A DNA stretch of 64,000 nt, taken from positions 1-64,000 of the forward strand of contig JAHJTC010000003.1 in NCBI GenBank assembly GCA_018830105.1, written 5' to 3'. Position 1 is the stretch's first letter. Each line of letters begins with the position of its first letter. The DNA is from Bacteroidota bacterium. Lineage in GTDB: Bacteria; Bacteroidota; Bacteroidia; Bacteroidales; F082. Shown one piece after another: positions 3,070 to 15,185 of the stretch. Both the position numbers and the translations under genes were made by a program. Below the pieces are notes generated by a model. It was not told the origin of the DNA, made no database searches, and saw nothing but the letters and a program-made list of their open reading frames with translations.

Positions 3070-4146
3070 TCACCCCTGCCTTTTCAAAAAATGCCGTGAA
3101 GTACCCGGCTCAAAATAGCAGATTTTTTCGCCAATGGCTTCGATTACCTCATTCAGGCTGCTGGTGCTTAGTGCGGGGTCTTTGTCCAGATTGGGTTTGT
3201 TGTTGTACAGCTGATAGTTTATCCTGTTGATCACGGGGGTGAGGTTGGGCATTACCACATTGGCTCCGGCCAGCAAGCCGCTCTGCCGGCCAAGCGGGTC
3301 AAGTGTTTCGAGGGCGGTGGAAGAAGCCATATTGATGTCGGGCATCAGCAGGCGCAGGCCGGCAATCATCAGCAGGCTCATCCTAAAGCGTTCAGCAGCT
3401 GGCCACAACAGCATAAACTTCTCAAAAAGTGGGGTTTCGGCATGTTCGATATAGGGGCCCATGCCAACCATATCCACATCCAGCGATTTAAAGAAGATCA
3501 GGTCATCAGCCAAATCAGCGATGGTTTGTCCGGGCAATCCGATCATCACGCCGGTGCCAACCTGATAACCGGCTTTGCGTAAGTCTTCCAGCGCTTCGAT
3601 ACGTTTTGCGTAGGCATGCAGCGGGTTTTGCGGATGGATCTGATCGTAAAGTGCACGATTTGTCGTTTCGATACGCAGCAGGTAACGGTGTGCGCCGGCT
3701 TCGTGCCAGCGTTTGAACACCTCATAAGGCTGTTCGCCACACGACAATGTAACTGATAATTCGGCATTGGTACGCTGATGGATGCCCTTCAGCAAGCGTT
3801 CGATATGGCTCGCAAAGCCCGGACTGCTGAGCTCTCCGCTCTGAATTACCAAGGAGCCGAAGCCTTTTCTCCAAGCAAAGTCAGCAGCCTGAAACACTTC
3901 TTCGTCCGTAAGGGTGTAGCGGTGCACCCGGCTGTTCGCCTTCCGGATGCCGCAATAGTAGCAGTCTTTGGCGCACACATTCGACAGCTCGATCAGGCCG
4001 CGGAGATATACATTCCGGCCAACCGTGGCTGCTTTAACTTCAAGTGCCCGGTTGAGCACTTTTTGGGTGTCGTCGCCTTTTACCGATAGCAGACTGATCA
4101 TATTGTCGCGCGAAAAGCTTGGCTGTTTGAGGAGTTGATTCAGCAT
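3070..4146 (-). CDS. hydE: [FeFe] hydrogenase maturase HydE (radical SAM)
   Basis: This 358-residue radical SAM enzyme belongs to the HydE/BioB-like family and works in assembly of the H-cluster organometallic precursor together with HydG and HydF. The CX3CX2C cluster motif is C58-AKD-C62-YY-C65, followed by GIRKAN. It is preceded by the N-terminal helical region usual in HydE, and the length matches the family. It is the last gene of the hyd locus; its start is 3 bp from the hydF stop, implying translational coupling. The enzyme is cytoplasmic. No broken features are seen. Confidence 0.95.
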   Translation of the reverse strand: MLNQLLKQPSFSRDNMISLLSVKGDDTQKVLNRALEVKAATVGRNVYLRGLIELSNVCAKDCYYCGIRKANSRVHRYTLTDEEVFQAADFAWRKGFGSLVIQSGELSSPGFASHIERLLKGIHQRTNAELSVTLSCGEQPYEVFKRWHEAGAHRYLLRIETTNRALYDQIHPQNPLHAYAKRIEALEDLRKAGYQVGTGVMIGLPGQTIADLADDLIFFKSLDVDMVGMGPYIEHAETPLFEKFMLLWPAAERFRMSLLMIAGLRLLMPDINMASSTALETLDPLGRQSGLLAGANVVMPNLTPVINRINYQLYNNKPNLDKDPALSTSSLNEVIEAIGEKICYFEPGTSRHFLKRQG

Positions 4147-4148
4147 GC

Positions 4149-5363
4149 TTACAAACTTAATTTGTTCTTAAATGGTGCCATCACGCGTTCAAAAATACCA
4201 TTGATCCAGGCAATTGTCATCCCATAATTACTTACCGGAATATTGGCATGGATGGCCGGACGAAGCCTGTTGATGAGCTGTTTGCGGGTTACCACACAAC
4301 CACCGCACTGGATTACCATGCGGTAATTGTTAATTTCCGGGATATCCGATAAGCCGGCTACCACATCAAATTCAAGCTGTTTGCCACTGAAGTCGCTGAT
4401 CCACCTGGGAAGTTTATGACGTCCGATATCTTCGCAGCTCACTTGGTGTGAACAGGATTCAAGAATGAGTATTTTGTCGCCATCATTCAGTTGCGAAAGG
4501 GTGGGTGTGCCTTGCATATAGTGTTCAAAATCGCCGCGAAGTCGGGCAAATACAATACTGAAACTGGTGAGTGGCACATGAGGCGGCACGATGCTGTTCA
4601 CAAAGCCAAAAGCCTGGCTGTCGGTGATCACCAGCTGTGGTTCGGGCATATGCTGCTGGAAGTACTGCTGCAGATGGGTTTCTTTGAGCACCACGCAGAT
4701 GTTGTCGTTATCCAGCACATCGCGGATGGCCATTACCTGTGGCAGGATCATCCTTCCGTCAGGGGCTTCCGAGTCGATGGGCGTTACAAGCAGAATCACA
4801 CCGTTTGGTTCAACAATACCGCCCAGTAACGAAGGTTTTTGGAAAGAAGTTTCAGGGATGGTTTTTTTGAGTAGCTCGATCAGGCTATCCGCTTTTGTTG
4901 CGCCAAACACATTAAAATCCAATACTTCGGCTTTGCTGAAGCTTTTGATTTTCTCTTTCGTTAGTGCTTCGATAGGCTGGATATCAGCTTTGTTATGAAT
5001 GATAAAGTAAGGAATGCTGTAATCACGAAACTGTTTGATCAGCTCTTTTTCATAAAAACCAAATTCGTTTTTGGTGATCACCAGAATAGCGCAGTCGATG
5101 GTTTTGATGGCATCATAGGTTTTTTTTATTCTTTTTTCACCCAGTTCGCCGCTATCGTCAATACCGGCCGTATCAACAATGATAGCAGGGCCTATGCCAA
5201 AAATTTCGATGGATTTTTTTACTGGATCAGTAGTAGTCCCCGGCTCATCAGAAACGATTGCAACTTCTTGATTTGTCATCAGGTTGATGATGGAACTTTT
5301 GCCATTATTGCGGCGGCCAAAGATCCCGATATGTGGTTTGAGGTCTTTTCCTTTTGTCATCAT
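4149..5363 (-). CDS. hydF: [FeFe] hydrogenase maturation GTPase HydF
   Basis: This 404-residue protein is the scaffold that receives the 2Fe precursor from HydG and HydE and delivers it to apo-HydA. The N-terminal GTPase domain shows G1 GRRNNGKSS (residues 16-24), a switch region EPGTTTDPV and G3 DTAGI. The C-terminal part carries the conserved cysteine region including the QCGGC motif, which binds a [4Fe-4S] cluster in this family. It lies between hydG (16 bp away) and hydE, the order of a dedicated maturation block. Length is typical (about 400 aa). Confidence 0.95.
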   Translation of the reverse strand: MMTKGKDLKPHIGIFGRRNNGKSSIINLMTNQEVAIVSDEPGTTTDPVKKSIEIFGIGPAIIVDTAGIDDSGELGEKRIKKTYDAIKTIDCAILVITKNEFGFYEKELIKQFRDYSIPYFIIHNKADIQPIEALTKEKIKSFSKAEVLDFNVFGATKADSLIELLKKTIPETSFQKPSLLGGIVEPNGVILLVTPIDSEAPDGRMILPQVMAIRDVLDNDNICVVLKETHLQQYFQQHMPEPQLVITDSQAFGFVNSIVPPHVPLTSFSIVFARLRGDFEHYMQGTPTLSQLNDGDKILILESCSHQVSCEDIGRHKLPRWISDFSGKQLEFDVVAGLSDIPEINNYRMVIQCGGCVVTRKQLINRLRPAIHANIPVSNYGMTIAWINGIFERVMAPFKNKLSL

Positions 5364-5379: not shown

Positions 5380-6807
5380 TTAGAAATACAGGTCGCGTTC
5401 GCCCTGTTTGATGCGTTCGATGCGGGCTTTTACTTCGTTGATATAGCGCTCGTCCCCCAGGCTATCCATATTGCGATCGATCACCTTCCAGCCTTTGACT
5501 GCAGTTTCTTCGGTGGCATAATCCATAATGTATTCGGCCAGGGTGAGCATGGCATTGGGCGTACAAAACTTCTTGATAAAGCCAGGCACACTAAATTCCA
5601 TAAAATGTTCGCCGGTGCGGCCTTTGCGATAACAGGCAGTGCAAAACGAGGGCAGGTAATCGCTTTCGAGCAGCTCGTCGATCACCTGATTGAGGGTGCG
5701 GTCGTCGTTGATTTTAAACTGCTCTTTATGCAGATTTTGATCGATTTCGGGATTTTCGCCATAGGCGCCAATCTCAAGCTTTGTTCCGGCATCGATCTGT
5801 GAGCAGCCAAAAGCCAGTACTTCCTTGCGGATTTTTTGCGATTCGCGGGCGGTTAGTATCAATCCGGTATAAGGCACCGCCAGCCGTAAAATGGCTACAA
5901 GGCGCGTAAATTCTGCATCTGTCACATAATATTTATCATCCAGATCATATTCCGAAGCATCCTGAATGCGCGGGAACGAAATGGTGTGCGGCCCCACATT
6001 GTAGCAGGCTTCGAGGTGATTCACATGACGCAACAGTGCCAGCACTTCAAAGCGCCAGTCGTATAAGCCAAACAAAGCGCCGATTCCCACATCGTCAATG
6101 CCGGCTTCCATAGCACGGTCCAGGGCAGTGAGCCGCCAGTCGTAGTCCGCTTTTTTGCCCGAAGGATGCACCATGGCATAAGTAGGATGATGATAGGTTT
6201 CATGAAATACCTGGTAAGTGCCAATGCCGGATTCGTAAATGGTTTTAAAGCCTGCGATGTCGAAGGGAGCTGCATTGATGTTGACACGGCGGATTTCGCC
6301 ATGGTCTTTTTTTACGCTATACACTGTGCGAACGGTATCCGCAATAAATTCAGCTGAATAGGTTTTGTGCTCGCCATAAACCAGAATAAGGCGTTTTTGG
6401 CCATGTTCTTCGAGCGCTTTTACATTCTCGATCAGTTCGTCTTTGGTAAGGGTTTTGCGGATAGCGCTTTTGTTGGAAGCTTTGAAACCGCAATAACGAC
6501 AATTGTTTGAGCAATAGTTGCCCACATAAAGTGGTGCAAAAAGCACGATGCGTTTGCCGTAAACCTTTTCTTTGAGTTCGCGGGCGCCGTTTTTGATGAT
6601 CTCGATGGATGCGCTGTCGGTGGCCTTGAGCAATACTGCCGTCTCGGCCAGACTGAGGCGGTTTTTATTGAGTGATTTTTGAACGATTGCCTTCACCTTT
6701 TCAGGTGTGGTTTCGGTTTTGTCGATGTATTCCCATATCTCCTCATCATCAATGAAAGGCTGCATGGGAACATCGGGTATTTTATAGTTTTCGGGAGTAA
6801 ATTTCAC
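5380..6807 (-). CDS. hydG: [FeFe] hydrogenase maturase HydG (tyrosine lyase)
   Basis: This radical SAM enzyme of 475 residues cleaves tyrosine to p-cresol and dehydroglycine and turns the latter into CO and cyanide for an Fe(CO)2(CN) synthon. The SAM cluster motif is C99-SNN-C103-RY-C106, and the auxiliary-cluster cysteines C389, C392 and C415 are present near the C-terminus, as required for the synthon-producing cluster. It is related to ThiH but the full auxiliary motif and the neighbours hydE/hydF identify HydG. It is 22 bp downstream of the receiver-kinase gene, so it is probably cotranscribed with it. Confidence 0.96.
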   Translation of the reverse strand: MKFTPENYKIPDVPMQPFIDDEEIWEYIDKTETTPEKVKAIVQKSLNKNRLSLAETAVLLKATDSASIEIIKNGARELKEKVYGKRIVLFAPLYVGNYCSNNCRYCGFKASNKSAIRKTLTKDELIENVKALEEHGQKRLILVYGEHKTYSAEFIADTVRTVYSVKKDHGEIRRVNINAAPFDIAGFKTIYESGIGTYQVFHETYHHPTYAMVHPSGKKADYDWRLTALDRAMEAGIDDVGIGALFGLYDWRFEVLALLRHVNHLEACYNVGPHTISFPRIQDASEYDLDDKYYVTDAEFTRLVAILRLAVPYTGLILTARESQKIRKEVLAFGCSQIDAGTKLEIGAYGENPEIDQNLHKEQFKINDDRTLNQVIDELLESDYLPSFCTACYRKGRTGEHFMEFSVPGFIKKFCTPNAMLTLAEYIMDYATEETAVKGWKVIDRNMDSLGDERYINEVKARIERIKQGERDLYF

Positions 6808-6829
6808 GTCAGGTAGATTTTAGTGATGT

Positions 6830-7951
6830 TCAAAGTCTTGGCAAAGATAGGATGAAAGTGGTTCCTTGATCGGGCACACTCTCCACTTTGATGGTGCCAT
6901 TGTATTGCTCCACCATTTTTTTTGTGATGGAAAGCCCTAGTCCGCTGCCTGTAATTTCTTTGGTTTTACTGTTTTTTATCCGCACGAAATCCTGAAAAAT
7001 TTTCTCGCTATCTTCGGTGCTCATGCCGATGCCGGTATCTGTAACGCGAATTTCGAAGTTTTGCCCCTGATTGCAAAGGCACACTTCCACGCTTCCTCCG
7101 TCCTTATTGTATTTTACAGCGTTAGAAATCAAATTATTGAAGATGATTTCCATTTCATCGGGATCAGCGAGAAGCTGAGGATCACCATTTACTTCGAGAT
7201 GAATAGCAACAGAGCGTTGTATGGCGTATGGTTCCATGGTGTCCATGGCCATCTTTGCGACATCAGCCAGGTTCACATCCCGCATTTTACGTTCTTTCTT
7301 GCCCGATTCTATCTTGGTCAGATCGAGCAGATCCATGATGAGGTTGCGCATCCCTTTGAGGCGTGTGAGCGAGCGGTCGATCATGCGGTCGTAATCTTCC
7401 AGTTTATCACCAAATTGCTTTTCCTGCATCATCTTCAGATAGCCCTCAACTGCATTGATGGGCGATTTGAGTTCGTGCGAGAGCACCGAAAGGAACTGGA
7501 ATCGAATTTGTTTGCCTTCGGCCTGCATTTTCTTTGTCATGCGTTTCAGAAAAAGATGCTTGGCAACATTTTCGATGGTAGCGCGCAATTCCTGCGGTGT
7601 AAAAGGCTTTGGCATGAAGTTGTAGGCTCCGTTTCGTGTGGCTTTCACGGCCAAATCGAGCGAAGCATAAGAGGTAATCATCATCACGGCCACATCAAAT
7701 TTCTGCTGTTTGATATATTCGAGCACCTCGATGCCATCCATGCCGGGCAGTTTGTTGTCGAGCAAAACCACATCAACAGGCTGGCTGTTAAGTACATCTA
7801 TGGCGTCTTCGCCTGTTCCGGCCTCTATAAGATGAAAATCAAAATCTTCGTCCATAAAGGGATATCCAACCGTGTAGTTGCCCAGAATACGATTGATGCC
7901 CGAACGGATGCCGGGCTCATCATCAACTACCAGCACATTTAGCGTTGCCAT
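6830..7951 (-). CDS. Receiver-histidine kinase (REC-HisKA-HATPase)
   Basis: This 373-residue cytoplasmic protein has an N-terminal receiver domain (D10/D11 acidic pocket, phosphoacceptor D65 in VLLDNKLPG, K115) and a C-terminal histidine kinase. The kinase has H159 in SVLSHELKSP, then a HATPase with DTGIG and GSGLGLSI boxes. It has no membrane segment, no input sensor domain and no DNA-binding domain. It sits between the stand-alone receiver and hydG inside the hyd locus, so it likely forms an intermediate step of a phosphorelay fed by the hydrogenase-like kinase two genes upstream. Partners are inferred only from position. Confidence 0.88.
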   Translation of the reverse strand: MATLNVLVVDDEPGIRSGINRILGNYTVGYPFMDEDFDFHLIEAGTGEDAIDVLNSQPVDVVLLDNKLPGMDGIEVLEYIKQQKFDVAVMMITSYASLDLAVKATRNGAYNFMPKPFTPQELRATIENVAKHLFLKRMTKKMQAEGKQIRFQFLSVLSHELKSPINAVEGYLKMMQEKQFGDKLEDYDRMIDRSLTRLKGMRNLIMDLLDLTKIESGKKERKMRDVNLADVAKMAMDTMEPYAIQRSVAIHLEVNGDPQLLADPDEMEIIFNNLISNAVKYNKDGGSVEVCLCNQGQNFEIRVTDTGIGMSTEDSEKIFQDFVRIKNSKTKEITGSGLGLSITKKMVEQYNGTIKVESVPDQGTTFILSLPRL

Positions 7952-7985
7952 ATATTGTATGTTTCAAAACGACCTGTGGCCGTGT

Positions 7986-8381
7986 TTACAGTTTTAATAA
8001 TTTATTGATTTCGCGGTGAAGCTGATCGCTGCGAATGCCTTTTTCGAGGTATAGATCGGCTTTGATCCAGTTGCGGTCATTTTCGTTGTATAAATCGAAG
8101 GTAAAGCCTGTTTCTGCTGTTGCTGCTGATGCAATAATAATGGGCATATCAGGATGTTTGCGTTTGGCTTTGTAGGCCAAAATAAAGCCGCTGTCTTCCT
8201 GTTCCATCATCAAATCGAAAATAGCCAGGTCGGGCTTGATGGTATCGAGCATTTTTTCGGCTTCTGCCTGACTTTCGGCTGTTTTAACGCGATAGCCCAA
8301 ATTCTTTACCATGGCTTCCATCTGGAAGAGGTAATCGGCATCATCATCGGCGATAAGAATCAATTTTTTTTCGTTACTCAT
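7986..8381 (-). CDS. Stand-alone response regulator receiver protein
   Basis: This 131-residue protein is a single CheY-like receiver domain. The acidic pocket is at ADDDADY (residues 11-17) and the probable phosphoacceptor is D56 in LAIFDLMME. No output domain follows. It is 20 bp downstream of the hydrogenase-like sensor kinase, the most likely phosphodonor, and 34 bp upstream of the receiver-kinase gene. The C-terminal alpha5 region reads EKGIRSDQL, so the usual KP dipeptide is altered, which is an oddity for a receiver. Confidence 0.85.
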   Translation of the reverse strand: MSNEKKLILIADDDADYLFQMEAMVKNLGYRVKTAESQAEAEKMLDTIKPDLAIFDLMMEQEDSGFILAYKAKRKHPDMPIIIASAATAETGFTFDLYNENDRNWIKADLYLEKGIRSDQLHREINKLLKL

Positions 8382-8400
8382 TTTAATTTTTTTTTGTTCT

Positions 8401-10386
8401 TTACGATGGGTTTCTGGGCAGACGTATCGTAAACGTCGTGCCTGTGTGTCCTTTCTCAGGATCGGTATTTGAATTCACATCTATTTTCCCTTTGTGCATC
8501 TTCACAATGCCATAGCAGAGCGGAAGTCCGAGCCCTGTGCCTTTTCCTACCTCTTTGGTAGTAAAAAACGGCGTGAATACTTTTTCCATATTTTCTTTGG
8601 AAATGCCTGTTCCTGTATCACTGATGGCAATGATGACATCGTCGGGTTTTTCAGCAAGTGAAATACTTAGTTTCCCTCCTTCTGGCATGGCTTCTACGGC
8701 ATTCTTTTCAAGATTCGTAAGCACTTGCATCATCTGATCGGCATCCAGAAAAACAAATGGATCTTTCATTTCAACCGAAAGCTCGATGGCAATATTTTTG
8801 GGATGGATGATACTTTTAATGCTTTGTTGTACAAATTTTTCAAGGTCGGTTTCTTGTAATCTTACCTGATTTTTACGGGCAAAATTCAACAGTCCGCCAA
8901 CTATTTTACGGCAGCGGTCGGTTTGTTCCACTATCAGTTGCAAGTCGCTACGGGTCGTATCATCGGCAACATCATCGAGCAAAAGATTGCTATACATGGT
9001 AATCACCCCCAGCGGATTGTTTAGCTCGTGGGCAATACCAGCCGAAAGCTGACCCATATGTGCGAGTTTTTCCGACTGTTTTAATGCCTCGCGAGCCGTA
9101 GCCAATTCCTGATTGGAGTGGTTTACCTTCTCGATAGATTGGTGCAGTTTCTCGATGGTATAAGGCAGACACATCTCTGTTTCGGCCAGTCCTTGTACTA
9201 TAGCTATTGCATGCTCCACGCAGGTGTCGTAGCCGCAGGCACCACAGTCGAGATAATCGCCCGGGTCGTTTTTCCCCATGCTTTTGAGCACTTCGGCAAT
9301 AGCTGCAGAAGTGGGGATTTGTGTGCGGCGATCCATCTGCTCGAAACTGGTGCTGAGGTCAACGGTTTCGGCCAGTTTCATGTCCTTTTCCCATTGCTGC
9401 TGATCGAAATTTTCGAGCTTATTGGCCACATAATTGGAGATGCACGAACGGCGCAGGTATTTTTTACCTTCTTCCGACATGCCGGGCCCCATGATACAGC
9501 CTTCGCAGCACAGCAGCTCGAGATGGCGCGCATTGAGAGCGCCCTGCGAAAATTCGTTCAGGGCATCTTTCACATTTACACGGCCTTCGGCCACCACTAC
9601 ATCGCCTTTGGTAATATCGGCTTCAATGTCCATGTTTTGCAGCAAGCCATGACTTACCGGAAAAATAGCACCTTTTGCAGCAAATGGAGGATTGAAATCA
9701 CAGGCCAGCGATTCGTCGGCTTTGATTTGATGTTGTTGAAACAGCTGGCGCAATTCTGCAAAGGTGAGGGCATAGTCGATTTCGTCCGACTCTGCCTTTT
9801 TTGCTACACAGGGCCCGATAAACACAACCTGTAAATCATCACCATATTTCTTTTTCAGAAAGCGTGAGCTGGCAACCATGGGCGAAACCAGTGGCGCCAA
9901 ATGATCCACCAGCTCGGGCAGATAATGCTCCACATAATACACGATTGCCGGACAATCTGAGTTAATGATGCCTTTGGAATCCTGTTGGTGGTAAAGTTTT
10001 TTATAAGCAACAGATACCATATCGGCTCCGAAGGCAACTTCTGTAACCAGCTCAAAACCAAGTTTTTTAACCATCCCAACCAGGATACGGTAATCTTCTA
10101 TTTCGGTAAACTCTGCCGGAAAACTTGGTGCCAGACAGGCGACTGTCCGTTGGCCGCTTTTGAGCAACTCGTTAACCTCTGAGATTTGTTGCAGATAAAC
10201 TTTAGCTTCCTGACGACATACACGCACACAATTGCCACAACCAATGCAACGTTCGCTGAGCACTTCGGCCTGTCCGTTGATGATTTTGATGGCTTTTACA
10301 GGGCACTCGCGCACGCAGGTGAAGCATACTCTGCACCTGTCTTTTACGGTAAATACCAGCTGTTTATGATGTTTGTTGTGTGCCAT
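8401..10386 (-). CDS. Hydrogenase-like sensor histidine kinase (2[4Fe-4S]-HydA-like-FeS-HisKA-HATPase)
   Basis: This 661-residue fusion reads as a redox or H2 sensor. Two ferredoxin clusters (C18/21/24/28 and C47/50/53/57) are followed by an [FeFe]-hydrogenase large-subunit domain (about 80-320). Next come an Fe-S domain DCGACGYDTC with C381/C384/C389 and probably C406, a short coiled coil, HisKA with H453 (GIAHELNNPLG) and a HATPase with DTGTG and GKGTGLGL. Compared with catalytic HydA, the first H-cluster loop is NSDCPAI, keeping the cluster Cys (C145) but lacking the proton-transfer Cys; the second is GPCVAKK (C193); the third is LLCCEGCIMG (C294, C297). The four H-cluster ligands are thus present while the proton pathway looks altered, as in sensory (HydS-type) hydrogenases. 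It lies 18 bp downstream of hydA. A PAS domain, usual in HydS, is absent. Confidence 0.9.
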   Translation of the reverse strand: MAHNKHHKQLVFTVKDRCRVCFTCVRECPVKAIKIINGQAEVLSERCIGCGNCVRVCRQEAKVYLQQISEVNELLKSGQRTVACLAPSFPAEFTEIEDYRILVGMVKKLGFELVTEVAFGADMVSVAYKKLYHQQDSKGIINSDCPAIVYYVEHYLPELVDHLAPLVSPMVASSRFLKKKYGDDLQVVFIGPCVAKKAESDEIDYALTFAELRQLFQQHQIKADESLACDFNPPFAAKGAIFPVSHGLLQNMDIEADITKGDVVVAEGRVNVKDALNEFSQGALNARHLELLCCEGCIMGPGMSEEGKKYLRRSCISNYVANKLENFDQQQWEKDMKLAETVDLSTSFEQMDRRTQIPTSAAIAEVLKSMGKNDPGDYLDCGACGYDTCVEHAIAIVQGLAETEMCLPYTIEKLHQSIEKVNHSNQELATAREALKQSEKLAHMGQLSAGIAHELNNPLGVITMYSNLLLDDVADDTTRSDLQLIVEQTDRCRKIVGGLLNFARKNQVRLQETDLEKFVQQSIKSIIHPKNIAIELSVEMKDPFVFLDADQMMQVLTNLEKNAVEAMPEGGKLSISLAEKPDDVIIAISDTGTGISKENMEKVFTPFFTTKEVGKGTGLGLPLCYGIVKMHKGKIDVNSNTDPEKGHTGTTFTIRLPRNPS

Positions 10387-10404
10387 TCAGGAATTTTTGT
10401 TGAC

Positions 10405-12126
10405 TTAATTTATGTCACGTTTTTGGTAATGTGTATGAAGCAGCTCATGGCTCTTATGACCCAAGGGCTTACCCAGGAACTTGTCGTACAACTCTTTGAT
10501 ATAGGGGTTTTTGTGAGACATTTTTATCGCGTCTTTTTCGTCAATATCATAGAGGGAAAGCATGCGGGCTTTTATGGCTTCGTCATCGGTTCCGATAGGT
10601 TGACCACCGCCATTGATGCAGCCTCCGGGACAAGCCATCACCTCGATGAAGTGAATATCGTTGCGGCCGTTTCTGATTTCTTCCATCAGTATTTCAGCAT
10701 TTTTGAGTCCGCTAACTACTACCACACCCACTTCCATTTCGCCGATGTTGACTTTGGCTTCTTTTCTGCCTTCCAGTCCTCTCACGCCTTTTACCTGAAA
10801 CTTCACCATTTCTTTTCCGGTAATAAAATAGTGAGCTGAGCGTATAGCCGCTTCCATAACACCTCCCGATGTACCGAATATTTTTCCTGCCGAAGAGCGT
10901 GTCCCCAGCGGAGAGTCGGCCAGTTCGGGTTCCATCTTGGTAATATCAATGCCATAAAGCCTGATCATCCTTGCCAGCTCGCGGGTGGTGAGCACAGCAT
11001 CTACATCAGAAATACCATTCTGAATCATCTCTTCGCGCTGCTGTTCAAATTTTTTAGCTGTACAGGGCATGATAGAAACGGAATAGATGTTTTCGGGCGC
11101 AATATTTTCTGTTTCGGCAAAATAACTTTTGATGATGGCGCCCATCATTTGTTGTGGCGATTTACAGCTGGAGAGGTTTTCGATCATATCGTGCTGAAAC
11201 TCTTCGGCATATTTTACCCAACCCGGGCAGCAGCTGGTAATCATTGGCAGTTTGCCTCCGTTTTGAACGCGATGTACCAGTTCTGATGCTTCCTCCATAA
11301 TGGTGAGGTCGGCGCTGAATGAGGTGTCGAAAACATAGTTAAATCCCATCCTGCGCAAGGCAGCATTCATGAGACCAATCATATTTTGTCCCGATGGCAA
11401 GCCAAATTCCTCGGCCAGCGAAACAGAAATGGAAGGCGCATATTGCACTACCACGGTTTTCTCTGGTTCGGCAAGCATATCTTTTATTTCAGAAATATGG
11501 TCTTTTTCTTTGAGAGCACCTGTTGGACAAACCATGATACACTGGCCGCAATTTACGCAGGTAGAAAGGTTTAGGCCATGATTAAAAGAAGTATCAATAA
11601 ATGTTTTGCTTCCCCGACCCACAAATTCAATGGCCGAAACGCCTTCGATTTCTTCACAAACCCGCACACAGCGTCCACAGAGGATGCATTTGGCCGGGTC
11701 GCGCACGATACTGGCGCTCGAAACGTCAAGTTTGTATTTGTTCTTTTGCCCGCTGATGCGTCTTTCACGAATATGCAAGTCCTCCGAGAGGTCCTGTAAT
11801 TCGCAACTGCCGTTGCGTTCGCAATACAAACAATCGTCGGGATGGTTCGAAAGCAAAAGTTCTACAATGGTTTTGCGCGATTCGATTACGCGGGCAGAGT
11901 GGGTTTTTATTTTCATGCCGTCGAGCACAGGTTCAGAACAGGCTGTTACAAGGTTTCGGCGGCCTTCCACTTCTACCACACACATGCGGCAGGCTCCTGT
12001 TGGAAACAGCCCTTTCATATGGCAGAGTGTTGGAACGGTCATCCCGTTTTGGCTCAAGGCATCTAAAATAGTATCGCCCTGGTTGGCAGTGATGATATTG
12101 TTGTTGACTTCGATCGTTAAATTCAT
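10405..12126 (-). CDS. hydA: [FeFe] hydrogenase catalytic subunit HydA (NADH-dependent/bifurcating type)
   Basis: This 573-residue subunit makes or consumes H2 at an H-cluster. In order it has a plant-type [2Fe-2S] domain (C35/46/49/63), a His-ligated [4Fe-4S] domain (H95, C99, C102, C108), two ferredoxin-type clusters (C147/150/153/157 and C190/193/196/200) and the H domain. The H-cluster motifs are TSCCPGW with C299/C300, MPCTAKKFE with C355, and EVMACPGGCINGGGQP with C499/C503, all canonical. The next genes upstream are hydB and hydC, the trimeric electron-bifurcating or NADH-linked arrangement. It is shorter than Thermotoga HydA because the extra C-terminal [2Fe-2S] domain is absent. Cytoplasmic. 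Confidence 0.96.
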   Translation of the reverse strand: MNLTIEVNNNIITANQGDTILDALSQNGMTVPTLCHMKGLFPTGACRMCVVEVEGRRNLVTACSEPVLDGMKIKTHSARVIESRKTIVELLLSNHPDDCLYCERNGSCELQDLSEDLHIRERRISGQKNKYKLDVSSASIVRDPAKCILCGRCVRVCEEIEGVSAIEFVGRGSKTFIDTSFNHGLNLSTCVNCGQCIMVCPTGALKEKDHISEIKDMLAEPEKTVVVQYAPSISVSLAEEFGLPSGQNMIGLMNAALRRMGFNYVFDTSFSADLTIMEEASELVHRVQNGGKLPMITSCCPGWVKYAEEFQHDMIENLSSCKSPQQMMGAIIKSYFAETENIAPENIYSVSIMPCTAKKFEQQREEMIQNGISDVDAVLTTRELARMIRLYGIDITKMEPELADSPLGTRSSAGKIFGTSGGVMEAAIRSAHYFITGKEMVKFQVKGVRGLEGRKEAKVNIGEMEVGVVVVSGLKNAEILMEEIRNGRNDIHFIEVMACPGGCINGGGQPIGTDDEAIKARMLSLYDIDEKDAIKMSHKNPYIKELYDKFLGKPLGHKSHELLHTHYQKRDIN

Positions 12127-12157: not shown

Positions 12158-14098
12158 TTAGTTGACCATTACTGCATTGAAATTACAAGCTTCTTCACAT
12201 GCGCCGCAGCTGATGCATTTATCCTGGATAATAAAATGAGGCTGTTTGCGACCTCCGATGATGGCTCCTGTTGGACATTTTTTGGCACAAATAGTACATC
12301 CGGTGCATTTTTCTACATCAATGGTGTATTCACGTAAGTTTTGGCAAACATTGGCACGACATTTTTTATCGAACACATGCTCTTCGTATTCTTCCCTGAA
12401 CCAGGTGAGCGTGCTCAATACAGGATTAGGGGCTGTTTGGCCCAATCCGCACAGTGAAGTGTCCTTGATTACCTTGCCCAGCTTTTCGAGCTGCATCACG
12501 CCTTTCATACGTGCCAGCGGTTCATGCGTTTCGCGGTTTGTAGGTTTACTGGTAATGCTTTGCAGGATTTCGAGCATACGTCGGGTGCCTTCGCGACAGG
12601 GGATACATTTTCCGCAGCTTTCGCGCTGTATGAAATCCATAAAGAACATAGCAATATCTACCATGCAGGTGTCTTCGTCCATCACAACCATACCGCCGGA
12701 GCCCATCATAGCACCTACGCTGATAAGATTTTCGTAATCGACTTCAATATCAAGATTTACATCGGTAACGCAGCCTCCTGAAGGACCACCCATTTGCACC
12801 GCTTTAAACTTTTTTCCGTTGGCGATTCCGCCAGCCACTTTATAAATGATGTCGCGAATGCTTGTTCCCATTGGGATTTCAACGAGGCCTGTTGTGGCGA
12901 TTTTTCCGGAAAGTGCAAAAACCTTTGTTCCTTTGCTTGTGGCCGTTCCCATTGCAGCAAACCAATCGGCACCTTTGTTTACGATGGAAGTGAGATTTGA
13001 CAAAGTTTCAACATTATTGATAATGGTGGGTTTGCCAAACAAGCCGCTTACGGCCGGGAATGGCGGGCGTGGGCGTGGCATTCCACGCCGGCCTTCGATG
13101 CTGTGGATTAGCGCTGTTTCTTCGCCACAAACGAAAGCCCCTGCACCTTTCTTGATTACAATATCCAGGTCGATACCTGAATCAAAAATATCTTTTCCAA
13201 GGAGGCCGTATTCTTTGGCTTGCTTGATGGCGATTACCAGTCTATCGATGGCCAGTGGATATTCGGCGCGGATATATACATAAGCTTTGGTGGCGCCAAT
13301 GGCATAAGCTGCCAGTGCCATGCCTTCGAGCAGTCGGTGTGGGTCGCCTTCGATCACGGCACGATCCATAAAAGCTCCCGGATCGCCTTCATCGGCATTA
13401 CAAATCAGGTATTTTTGGTCGGACTCGGTTGCCAGGGCAAATTTCCATTTTTTCCCGGTAGGGAAACCTCCACCACCACGGCCACGTAATCCGCTCTTTT
13501 CGATGAAATCGCACAATTCTGCAGGACTGAAAACTTTAAGGGCATTCAGATAAGCCTTGTAGCCATCACGTGCAATATATTCTTCGATACTGACGGGATT
13601 AGAAATACCGCAGTTTTCGAGTACCAGACGAACCTGAGGCTTGAAGAAATAATGGTCTTTGAGAAAAGGGATTTCAGGCCAGTCTGTTTGATCTTTTTGT
13701 TCGTGAAACTGTCCTAAAACAGGATGTTGCGGAATTTCTTCAGCAAAAATCTTATCCAGAATTTCTGCTACTTTTGGGCCGCTGACTTTCTCGAACGAGA
13801 TGCGTTTTTTTCCGGGCAGTTTGATGTCCATCAAGGGCTCAGAAGAGCACAGGCCAATACAGCCTACCGGTATTACTGCTGCATCAATATTGTTGTCGCT
13901 GAGGTATTTTTTGGCCATTTTAATGGTTTCGGCTGCTCCGGCGCCTAATCCGCAAGTGCCGGCACCCACAAACACCACGGGTTTGCTGTTGTGTTCGTTT
14001 TTTAACAGCTGTAGCTGCCCTGCAACTTCTGCAGTAATGGCTGATTTTTCGCTTTGCTTCAGCACATTTTCAATTAAAAAATTCATTTCTGTTTGCAT
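12158..14098 (-). CDS. hydB: Hydrogenase NADH-binding flavoprotein subunit HydB (NuoF-like)
   Basis: This 646-residue NuoF-type subunit binds FMN and NAD(H) and splits or combines electrons between NADH, ferredoxin and HydA. An N-terminal thioredoxin-like [2Fe-2S] domain carries VGCIGLCSSEP. The NuoF core follows with the NADH-site glycine loop GRGGGGFPTGKKW and the FMN region. The cluster motif CGKCIPCREGTRRM and two C-terminal ferredoxin clusters (CTGCTICAKKCP, CISCGACEEAC) complete it. The C-terminal ferredoxin extension is what separates HydB from respiratory NuoF. The start is 3 bp from the hydC stop, implying coupling. Confidence 0.95.
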   Translation of the reverse strand: MQTEMNFLIENVLKQSEKSAITAEVAGQLQLLKNEHNSKPVVFVGAGTCGLGAGAAETIKMAKKYLSDNNIDAAVIPVGCIGLCSSEPLMDIKLPGKKRISFEKVSGPKVAEILDKIFAEEIPQHPVLGQFHEQKDQTDWPEIPFLKDHYFFKPQVRLVLENCGISNPVSIEEYIARDGYKAYLNALKVFSPAELCDFIEKSGLRGRGGGGFPTGKKWKFALATESDQKYLICNADEGDPGAFMDRAVIEGDPHRLLEGMALAAYAIGATKAYVYIRAEYPLAIDRLVIAIKQAKEYGLLGKDIFDSGIDLDIVIKKGAGAFVCGEETALIHSIEGRRGMPRPRPPFPAVSGLFGKPTIINNVETLSNLTSIVNKGADWFAAMGTATSKGTKVFALSGKIATTGLVEIPMGTSIRDIIYKVAGGIANGKKFKAVQMGGPSGGCVTDVNLDIEVDYENLISVGAMMGSGGMVVMDEDTCMVDIAMFFMDFIQRESCGKCIPCREGTRRMLEILQSITSKPTNRETHEPLARMKGVMQLEKLGKVIKDTSLCGLGQTAPNPVLSTLTWFREEYEEHVFDKKCRANVCQNLREYTIDVEKCTGCTICAKKCPTGAIIGGRKQPHFIIQDKCISCGACEEACNFNAVMVN

Positions 14099-14100
14099 GC

Positions 14101-14574
14101 CTATTCCTCCCTGTTTCTATAATCTTCAAAAATGCCTTTGATGGATTCTGTTCCAACTTTTGCATGAAATTCGCCATTAATGCTGATTACCGGAGCAAGT
14201 CCGCAAGCACCAATACAGGCAACAACTTCCAGGCTGAAGAGCTTATCCTTGGTAGTTTGTCCGGTTTTTATTTTAAGGTTTTTCTCTATTTCATCCAGCA
14301 CAGTAGCCGAACCCAACACATGGCATGCTGTGCCGCGACATACCTGAACATGGTATTTGCCGGGCTGATTAAAGCGGAACTGATTGTAAAAAGTGGCAAC
14401 GCCAAATATTTTACTGGCGGGCATTTTGAGGTGTTTGCTCACCTCAATAACTGACTCTTCAGATAAGAATCCCAGCTTTTCCTGCATATGCTGCAGAATG
14501 GGTATCAAGCTATCGCGGCCTGCATTCGGGTATTGGTCCAAAATTTCCTGTACGATGGTTTTCATATAACTCAT
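14101..14574 (-). CDS. hydC: Hydrogenase [2Fe-2S] subunit HydC (NuoE-like)
   Basis: This 157-residue NuoE-type thioredoxin-fold protein has [2Fe-2S] ligands at C79 and C84 (CRGTAC) and at C120 and C124 (CIGACGLAP). It is the small electron-transfer subunit of the HydABC complex. The length fits NuoE/HydC (about 150-170). Another in-frame Met, at residue 4, is possible as a start. The gene is followed almost without gap by hydB and preceded by the receiver gene 92 bp upstream. Confidence 0.95.
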   Translation of the reverse strand: MSYMKTIVQEILDQYPNAGRDSLIPILQHMQEKLGFLSEESVIEVSKHLKMPASKIFGVATFYNQFRFNQPGKYHVQVCRGTACHVLGSATVLDEIEKNLKIKTGQTTKDKLFSLEVVACIGACGLAPVISINGEFHAKVGTESIKGIFEDYRNREE

Positions 14575-14666: not shown

Positions 14667-15185
14667 TTAGCTTGTAGGGCTTGCGGCTTTCTTGGCCAAA
14701 ATACGCTCTACCTCAGGAAGCACCCTGCTTTTTTCGACCGGCTTGCGGATAAAACCATTTACCGGAACCCACACCGAGCGGCCGTCTTCAGCACGGTAGT
14801 CGATGCCGGAGTTTCCGGTTACGATATCACGAATTAAAATCACTTGCAACTCCTTGTAATTTGGGTCGCTACGAAACTCACGGGCCATTGCCTGCACGCT
14901 GGGTTTAGTGGTCATCAACACTTCAATAGATGTTTCCATGAGTGTTGGAATGCCTGCCAGTTTAGGATTATCAACAAATTCGCGTGCCATTTCGAAACCT
15001 TCGTAATGGGTAGTCATCATCACATCCAGTATGGCGAGATCGGGTTTTTCATTAAGGGCTTTTTCCAGGCCTTCTTCTTTGTTGAAAGCTGATACAACCT
15101 CATAGCCTTCACTGGTCAGAATTTGTTCAAGCATAGTGATAACGTCCATATCATCATCTACGACTAAAATTTTTGCTTTTGCCAT
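14667..15185 (-). CDS. Response regulator receiver protein, first gene of hyd locus
   Basis: Start chosen at 15185 (MAKAKILVVDDD) because it sits directly at the first beta strand; an upstream in-frame start at 15230 would add 15 residues and overlap the proposed promoter. The 172-residue protein is a single receiver: acidic pocket D10-D12, phosphoacceptor D54 (LAILDVMM) and a GFIRKPV lysine. A long insertion between the third and fourth beta strands (around residues 58-115) makes it longer than CheY-type domains. No DNA-binding domain is present. It leads the hydrogenase locus and is likely cotranscribed with hydC. Confidence 0.85.
   Translation of the reverse strand: MAKAKILVVDDDMDVITMLEQILTSEGYEVVSAFNKEEGLEKALNEKPDLAILDVMMTTHYEGFEMAREFVDNPKLAGIPTLMETSIEVLMTTKPSVQAMAREFRSDPNYKELQVILIRDIVTGNSGIDYRAEDGRSVWVPVNGFIRKPVEKSRVLPEVERILAKKAASPTS

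Follow-up and report, generated by a model that had tools for sequence, protein, structure and literature searches.

Sensory [FeFe]-hydrogenases tied to a histidine kinase already have a place in the literature. Class C1 of HydDB is given as 'histidine kinase-linked (putative)' in the part of PMC5037454 drawn on here, and the main-text parts of PMC11406978 report a kinase-bearing BfuT, encoded beside bfuABC, for sub-type V bfu clusters of Hydrogenedentota and Caldithrix, filed by the authors under group C3 rather than C1, as well as two bfuT genes in three Bacteroidota. Two further sensory enzymes, TmHydS and TamHydS, are treated in a series of papers, of which excerpts were used (PMC10055695, PMC8163306, PMC10407848, PMC11803613, PMC6984386). 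Both carry Ala at the site of C299 of CpI (PMC10407848), and in TamHydS H2 induces a change of secondary structure while the C-terminal cluster stays unreduced (PMC13104023, in the portion available).

A gene for a hydrogenase-like sensor histidine kinase (HydS-HK) was found in an operon for an NADH-dependent [FeFe]-hydrogenase in the window, which is the whole stretch of 64,000 nucleotides of contig JAHJTC010000003.1 analyzed here. The operon comprises, in its direction of reading:

14667..15182, minus strand: RECup, a receiver-only protein upstream of hydC, with its start assumed at an inner ATG
14101..14574, minus strand: HydC, NuoE-like, named by its operon
12158..14098, minus strand: HydB, NuoF-like, named by its operon
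10405..12126, minus strand: HydA, over the cut-off of the model for NADH-dependent [FeFe]-hydrogenases of group A6
8401..10386, minus strand: HydS-HK, an open reading frame of 661 amino acids with an ATG start
7986..8381, minus strand: REC1, a single receiver domain with Asp56 (Pfam)
6830..7951, minus strand: REC-HK, a receiver (Asp65) followed by HisKA (His159) and HATPase_c (Pfam)
5380..6807, minus strand: HydG maturase, over its model cut-off
4149..5363, minus strand: HydF maturase (Pfam), over its model cut-off
3070..4146, minus strand: HydE maturase, over its model cut-off

The gene of HydS-HK follows hydA after 18 bases and is itself followed by that of REC1 after 19 bases, which precedes that of REC-HK by 34 bases. 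A place beside a group A hydrogenase (here hydA by the A6 model) is typical of the putative sensory HydS proteins of groups C and D. The first-pass annotation had put the gene between hydA and the maturases; both indeed flank it, but REC1 and REC-HK, which were overlooked, lie before the maturases. No DNA-binding domain was found in HydS-HK, REC1, or REC-HK. Just past hydE, an IS21-type element (231-2575) codes for an IstB ATPase and a transposase with rve and Mu C-terminal domains.

Along the chain of HydS-HK, the following parts were distinguished:

10204..10347, minus strand: two ferredoxin-type [4Fe-4S] motifs (residues 14-61; Pfam Fer4_10 at 14-57)
9484..10149, minus strand: [FeFe]-hydrogenase H-domain (residues 80-301; Pfam Fe_hyd_lg_C, E 8.9e-44)
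9955..9957, minus strand: codon of Asp144, at the place of C299 of CpI
9163..9252, minus strand: FeS domain PF04060 with the pattern Cx2Cx4Cx16C (Pfam 379-408; C381, C384, C389, and C406)
9073..9168, minus strand: predicted helix 407-438, running from C406 towards the kinase (AlphaFold2; low confidence from residue 428)
8869..9057, minus strand: HisKA domain with the phospho-acceptor His453 (Pfam 444-506)
8410..8745, minus strand: HATPase_c domain (Pfam 548-659)

This is the domain order that had been proposed from the letters alone, and Pfam bore it out. Conservation was assessed in 80 named loci, the best 80 of 548 confirmed, all of them from metagenome-assembled genomes (MAGs) and all but one (L096, Spirochaetia) with a Bacteroidota name. 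Each cysteine of the ferredoxin motifs (C18, C21, C24, C28, C47, C50, C53, and C57) was present in 79 of these best 80 relatives, with a gap in one, and the four cysteines of the FeS domain were kept in 80/80; two N-terminal [4Fe-4S] motifs together with a C-terminal Cx2Cx4Cx16C pattern are also found in HydS of groups C and D. His453 was found in 78 of the best 80, the other two being gapped, and H453, N558, N562, D590, G592, and G594 were invariant in an alignment of 96 sequences, so that HydS-HK has both the phospho-acceptor His and the ATP-binding boxes of a two-component sensor kinase. In having HisKA and HATPase_c on the same chain as the H-domain, it resembles the kinase-linked sensory hydrogenases (HydDB C1, kinase-bearing BfuT). 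Pfam retrieved neither a PAS family at E<=0.001, which sets the protein apart from group C / M2f, nor the small-subunit domain Fe_hyd_SSU. Homologues were numerous: of 7999 scored candidates, 6893 reached E<=1e-3, which is far above chance, and one relative of 35% was seen among viral contigs.

The H-domain has retained the residues that surround an H-cluster. The ligands C145, C193, C294, and C297 and the first loop NSDCPAI were as read in the first-pass annotation, and the four cysteines, as expected of HydS of groups C and D, were kept in the window protein and in 80/80 of the named relatives (best 80 of 548). In CpI, K358 holds the [2Fe] part of the H-cluster. Its equivalent K196, as well as E199 (E361 of CpI), was likewise kept in all of the best 80. 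The label 'degenerate' was hence too strong and was rejected for the kinase-fused HydS-HK. It is the second sphere that differs, as M353 of CpI is replaced by Gly (G191) in 79, M497 by Leu (L292) in 80, E279 by Tyr (Y128) in 74, and S319 by Ala (A164) in 72 of the best 80 relatives. The hallmarks of catalytic group A (TSCCPxW, MPC, M497, and a small-subunit domain) are thus replaced by NSDCPAI, GPC, L292, and the lack of Fe_hyd_SSU. Cys293 (76 of the best 80) and His392 (79 of the best 80) were both rare in the other sensory rows compared.

An AlphaFold2 model of HydS-HK, computed from 96 sequences (pLDDT 83.2, pTM 0.62), matched the solved [FeFe]-hydrogenases 8ryh, 8a6t, CpI, and the C299D variant of CpI (6glz), as well as the kinase ZraS. 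The predicted helix 407-438 begins directly after C406, the last cysteine of the FeS domain, stands where PAS would be in group C / M2f, and leads to helix 443-472, which bears His453. Residues 428-454, including His453, have a pLDDT <50, so the join of this helix to the kinase is a predicted one.

A search for the same domain order and neighborhood showed that the three genes generally occur together. REC1 followed the sensor in 72 and REC-HK in 70 of the 80 named loci (best 80 of 548), with both in 69; in 68 of these 69 complete loci hydA lay at most 1.5 kb upstream, and 10 of the 11 incomplete loci among the best 80 end within 746 bases of the sensor, at contig ends. The phospho-acceptor Asp of REC1 was kept in 72/72 and that of REC-HK in 69/70 of these loci from the best 80, and the His of REC-HK in 70/70. 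In a sample of 296 genomes from the phylum that contained the window's own, 18 others had a kinase-fused homologue, at 41-45% identity, and at these distant loci HydS-HK, REC1, and REC-HK stood in order in 18/18, with hydA upstream in 14 and with all phospho-acceptors (both Asp residues and the His) kept in 18/18. The distant REC-HK is about 500 amino acids long, with PAS in both of those examined. Judged by sequence match and frame length, 21 of 60 near relatives have a homologue (E<=2.4e-146; 662-689 amino acids), and so do 5 of 6 within the same genus.

The trio is not universal, as L096, L182, L183, and L185 showed. In L096, REC-HK was present, but the 13.3 kb searched contained neither REC1 nor any hyd gene; its assignment to Spirochaetia is possibly a binning error, although the genome has two further H-domain genes. 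In its phylum, 10 of 80 genomes (its own included) matched at E<=1e-60, and five matches in frames of 666-696 amino acids had Asp (L096), Ser (two), or Pro (two) at position 144. For the Spirochaetota loci, L185 has REC1 followed by a receiver protein in which no kinase domain was found (5614-6834; a receiver plus about 280 amino acids without a Pfam match at E<=0.001), L184 has REC1 without a match to REC-HK in the remaining 1.4 kb or so, and the kinase-fused sensors of L182 and L183, with Ser at 144, had neither REC1 nor REC-HK nor hyd genes in the stretch searched.

The surroundings of the trio fall into two settings. RECup stood upstream of hydCBA, as in the window, in 32 of the 80 named loci (best 80 of 548), and a divergent PAS-type paralogue of the sensor stood on the other flank in 34; both together occurred in none of the best 80, and neither in 14, for which contig ends may account. 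The designation PAS-type is based on likeness to the PAS protein of the window's own genome and on the lack of a kinase. Such a paralogue upstream of hydC faces the hydABC operon (minus strand), for example in L049, L058, and L109. At these 34 loci from the best 80, a SpoIIE-like gene was found in 29 and a Rex-like gene in 26, the latter called by BLAST to the Rex of the window's own genome, which is itself over NCBI's cut-off for Rex. In the 34 paralogues from the best 80, K358 was lost throughout (the next Lys being mostly kept), the C499 ligand was lost in 15, three were cut short, and 24 had Asn at position 144. Judged by these residues, the H-domain of the divergent PAS paralogues is degenerate.

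The HydA beside the sensor has Cys at C299 in 32/32 of the RECup loci among the best 80 and in 25/45 at the other loci, where Asp (8), Ser (5), Glu (3), Ala (3), and His (1) also occur; this count leaves out L064, L079, and L096, where no HydA lay in range, and L064 has one more Asp HydA further off. HydA proteins with a natural Asp (SGDCPAW, SSDCPAF, and similar loops) and K358 kept were seen in L049, L051, L056, L064, L065, L109, L110, L114, and L117, and those with Glu, Ala, or His at C299 at like loci have lost K358. A TSCSPGW loop, with Ser at the C300 ligand of CpI, was found in 15 HydA rows, including L037 (contig 31 of the window's own genome), L127, and L130, and also in PDB chain 7q4v_A. 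In L121, L123, L124, and others, a receiver (REC2) precedes a second hydCBA of the distant type; the receiver-only proteins RECup and REC2 might target the enzyme itself. In the vicinity of HydG- and HydE-like genes, L138 codes for a hydrogenase-like hybrid kinase of 1349 amino acids (6425-10471; PAS, HisKA, HATPase, two receivers, and Hpt). In the window's own genome, there were five H-domain matches, namely the pair of HydS-HK and HydA in the window, HydA with a Rex-like gene below NCBI's cut-off on contig 31, and, on contig 12, HydA together with a PAS-type HydS, next to Rex and a SpoIIE-type phosphatase; this strain thus carries three sets of hydrogenase genes, each with different neighbors.

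Phylogenetic trees of the H-domain, in which reference sequences of TmHydS and TamHydS were not included, placed it with the other sensory-type domains and apart from HydA (100/100), in keeping with the original assignment. The distant kinase set formed one clade (100/99). The window clade and the PAS paralogues found at 34 loci fell into one group (100/99), outside of which the PAS protein of contig 12 stood with L137 (100/98). A quick tree agreed with the more careful one on these groupings. They indicate that the kinase fusion is likely older than the split between these groups. For the PAS paralogues at the 34 loci, an origin inside the window clade or next to it is likely; kinase loss, two gains, and domain exchange are each compatible with the trees. 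The Asp-bearing sensors formed one group in the quick tree (support 77), and in the careful tree they stayed whole with respect to the PAS paralogues in 33% of 200 bootstrap trees.

At the place of the proton-transfer Cys, Asp144 was found in 80/80 of the named relatives in the alignment (best 80 of 548) and in 121/121 database sequences, i.e. the 120 best hits and the window, a set in which three hits are the window's own protein and which may share genomes with the former. The Cys is thus absent, as it is in HydS of groups C and D and as had been noted before, but a mere loss is an incomplete account, given that Asp replaces it invariantly in the clade. Asp does not mark every kinase-fused sensor with a CC motif at the third ligand, as L182 and L183 carry Ser. 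Among the distant 18, position 144 was Ala in six, Pro in eight, and Ser in three, and one, split into two frames, gave no letter. In CaHydA, Asp was the only one of all 19 substitutions of C298 to retain efficient turnover (PMC3485046), and in three enzymes Asp for Cys moved the preference toward H2 evolution, with CaI C298D retaining a high share of Hox under H2 (PMC9563086), as far as the parts of these papers used here go. Given the invariance of Asp144 in the clade, a modified proton relay may persist at this site. The remaining proton path of CpI is gone in HydS-HK (E279 to Y128, E282 to L131, and S319 to A164), so a relay through Asp144 would need a different route; moreover, a Cys introduced at this site lowered the activity of TmHydS (PMC10407848, in part), indicating that sensors do not necessarily use this site as a relay. 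It is rather unlikely that Asp144 is just a neutral clade marker, without functional choice. Kinase-fused relatives presumably work with Ala, Pro, or Ser, and TmHydS and TamHydS have Ala (same source, in part), which would agree with neutrality, but Asp144 underwent no change over a tree length of 25.3 substitutions per site (81 sequences), as against 9 changes over 20.0 in 82 HydA (counting second copies) from these loci and 8 over 10.8 among the 34 PAS paralogues, in trees built without this column. As many as 34 of the 222 H-domain columns are equally unchanging, so that Asp144 resembles a ligand position and not a unique one.

A hydrogenase-based sensor kinase remains the best reading. It is reasonably probable that HydS-HK is an [FeFe]-hydrogenase sensor kinase with a predicted working H-cluster and Asp144 as its likely relay, which signals to REC1 and REC-HK to control hydABC. 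The domain order, the intact ligands and K358 equivalent, the invariant Asp144, the kept phospho-acceptors, and the conserved trio are observed. The H-module would be coupled directly to the histidine kinase, with no PAS detected, and H2, or a matching redox state, would alter the H-cluster and switch the kinase, with Asp144 probably relaying protons. The signal may be transmitted as a change in conformation that runs through the FeS domain and helix 407-438, and not as a reduction of the FeS cluster, a coupling favored because of the behavior of TamHydS under H2 (PMC13104023, in part). The phosphate would then likely pass to the adjacent REC1 and REC-HK. A sensor of redox state instead, in which electrons from reduced ferredoxin enter via the N-terminal clusters, the kinase tracks the cellular redox state, and turnover of H2 is a vent, could make use of the conserved N-terminal motifs and FeS domain and would suit the NADH-linked hydABC next door and the Rex-like gene at 26 of the 34 PAS-paralogue loci (among the best 80 of 548). 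It is nevertheless unlikely, as a pure ferredoxin sensor would not need the strictly constrained ligands, K358 equivalent, and D144. Still less probable is an H-domain that binds an H-cluster, or just its [4Fe-4S] part, for structural reasons, with the kinase answering to another signal, such as maturation factors or contact with HydA. The gene does stand with hydA and hydGFE, and M353, M497, E279, and S319 of the catalytic enzymes are all replaced in the second sphere; yet the K358 equivalent and D144 were kept in 80/80 (best 80 of 548), and a possible case of this kind is instead offered by the PAS paralogues, which lost K358 in 34/34.

As an extension of the sensor-kinase reading, the system may be pictured as a natural Cys-to-Asp H-cluster sensor: a clade would have fixed the one replacement that sustained turnover in a catalytic hydrogenase, with the H-cluster retuned into a hydrogen gauge, and this sensor would drive a two-kinase relay (HydS-HK, REC1, and REC-HK) that lacks any DNA-binding part and has the bifurcating hydrogenase itself as its target, with a burnt-out second sensory hydrogenase (no K358) as partner or antagonist on the other flank at 34/80 loci (best 80 of 548); this picture is speculative and, as a whole, doubtful. 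With sensor and kinase in one chain, autophosphorylation could serve as the readout of a response to H2. In its invariant Asp, the protein has a natural parallel to the engineered C298D/C299D enzymes, which allows a test of the tuning of sensors at the proton-exchange site; if the effect in CaI and the three enzymes also applies to HydS-HK, a sensor with Asp would need more H2 or a lower potential to respond than one with Cys.

Compared with known systems, the direct fusion to a kinase, which the first-pass annotation had considered unusual, is no new architecture, in view of PMC5037454 and PMC11406978, as far as their available text goes, and of an Ignavibacterium annotation. HydDB C1, like HydS-HK, ties a sensory [FeFe]-hydrogenase to a histidine kinase (PMC5037454, in part), and BfuT is likewise a sensory hydrogenase with a kinase domain that adjoins genes of a bifurcating hydrogenase (PMC11406978, main-text parts). 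The second bfuT that, according to those parts, some Bacteroidota have upstream of bfuC is reminiscent of the 34 loci with a divergent PAS paralogue. The main text of PMC11406978 gave no match for 'response regulator' or 'receiver', and its main-text parts, supplements apart, do not mention Asp at C299 or loss of K358 in the second copy. Kinase-fused sensory hydrogenases are thus already known; the Asp144 clade, the trio of genes, and the lost K358 of 34/34 PAS paralogues are apparently new, as no published account of them was found in the full-text literature searched, chiefly open-access main texts. In the excerpts used, TmHydS (group C / M2f) shares with HydS-HK two N-terminal clusters, the H-domain, a C-terminal FeS motif, the loss of C299, and Gly at M353, but has PAS instead of a kinase, Ala at C299, and Ser instead of Leu at M497 (PMC10055695). 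TamHydS (group D / M2e) is similar to HydS-HK in the lack of PAS, the Cx2Cx4Cx16C pattern, Leu at M497, and a position near a group A operon, but differs in having no fused kinase, Ala at C299, and Ser instead of Gly at M353, again going by portions of the sources (PMC8163306, PMC10407848, PMC11803613, PMC13104023). The group D relay Glu252 of TamHydS may also be absent: at V423 of CpI, the presumed place of E252, HydS-HK has L248. The domain order of HydS-HK recurs in a protein of Ignavibacterium album annotated as 'NtrC family signal transduction histidine kinase', of which related genomes have the same trio, with PAS in REC-HK at the two loci examined. This type is distinct from HydS-HK in its Ala, Phe, and Tyr at positions 144, 293, and 392, respectively, as found in 120/120 of the best hits to one distant homologue, many of them named Ignavibacterium where named.
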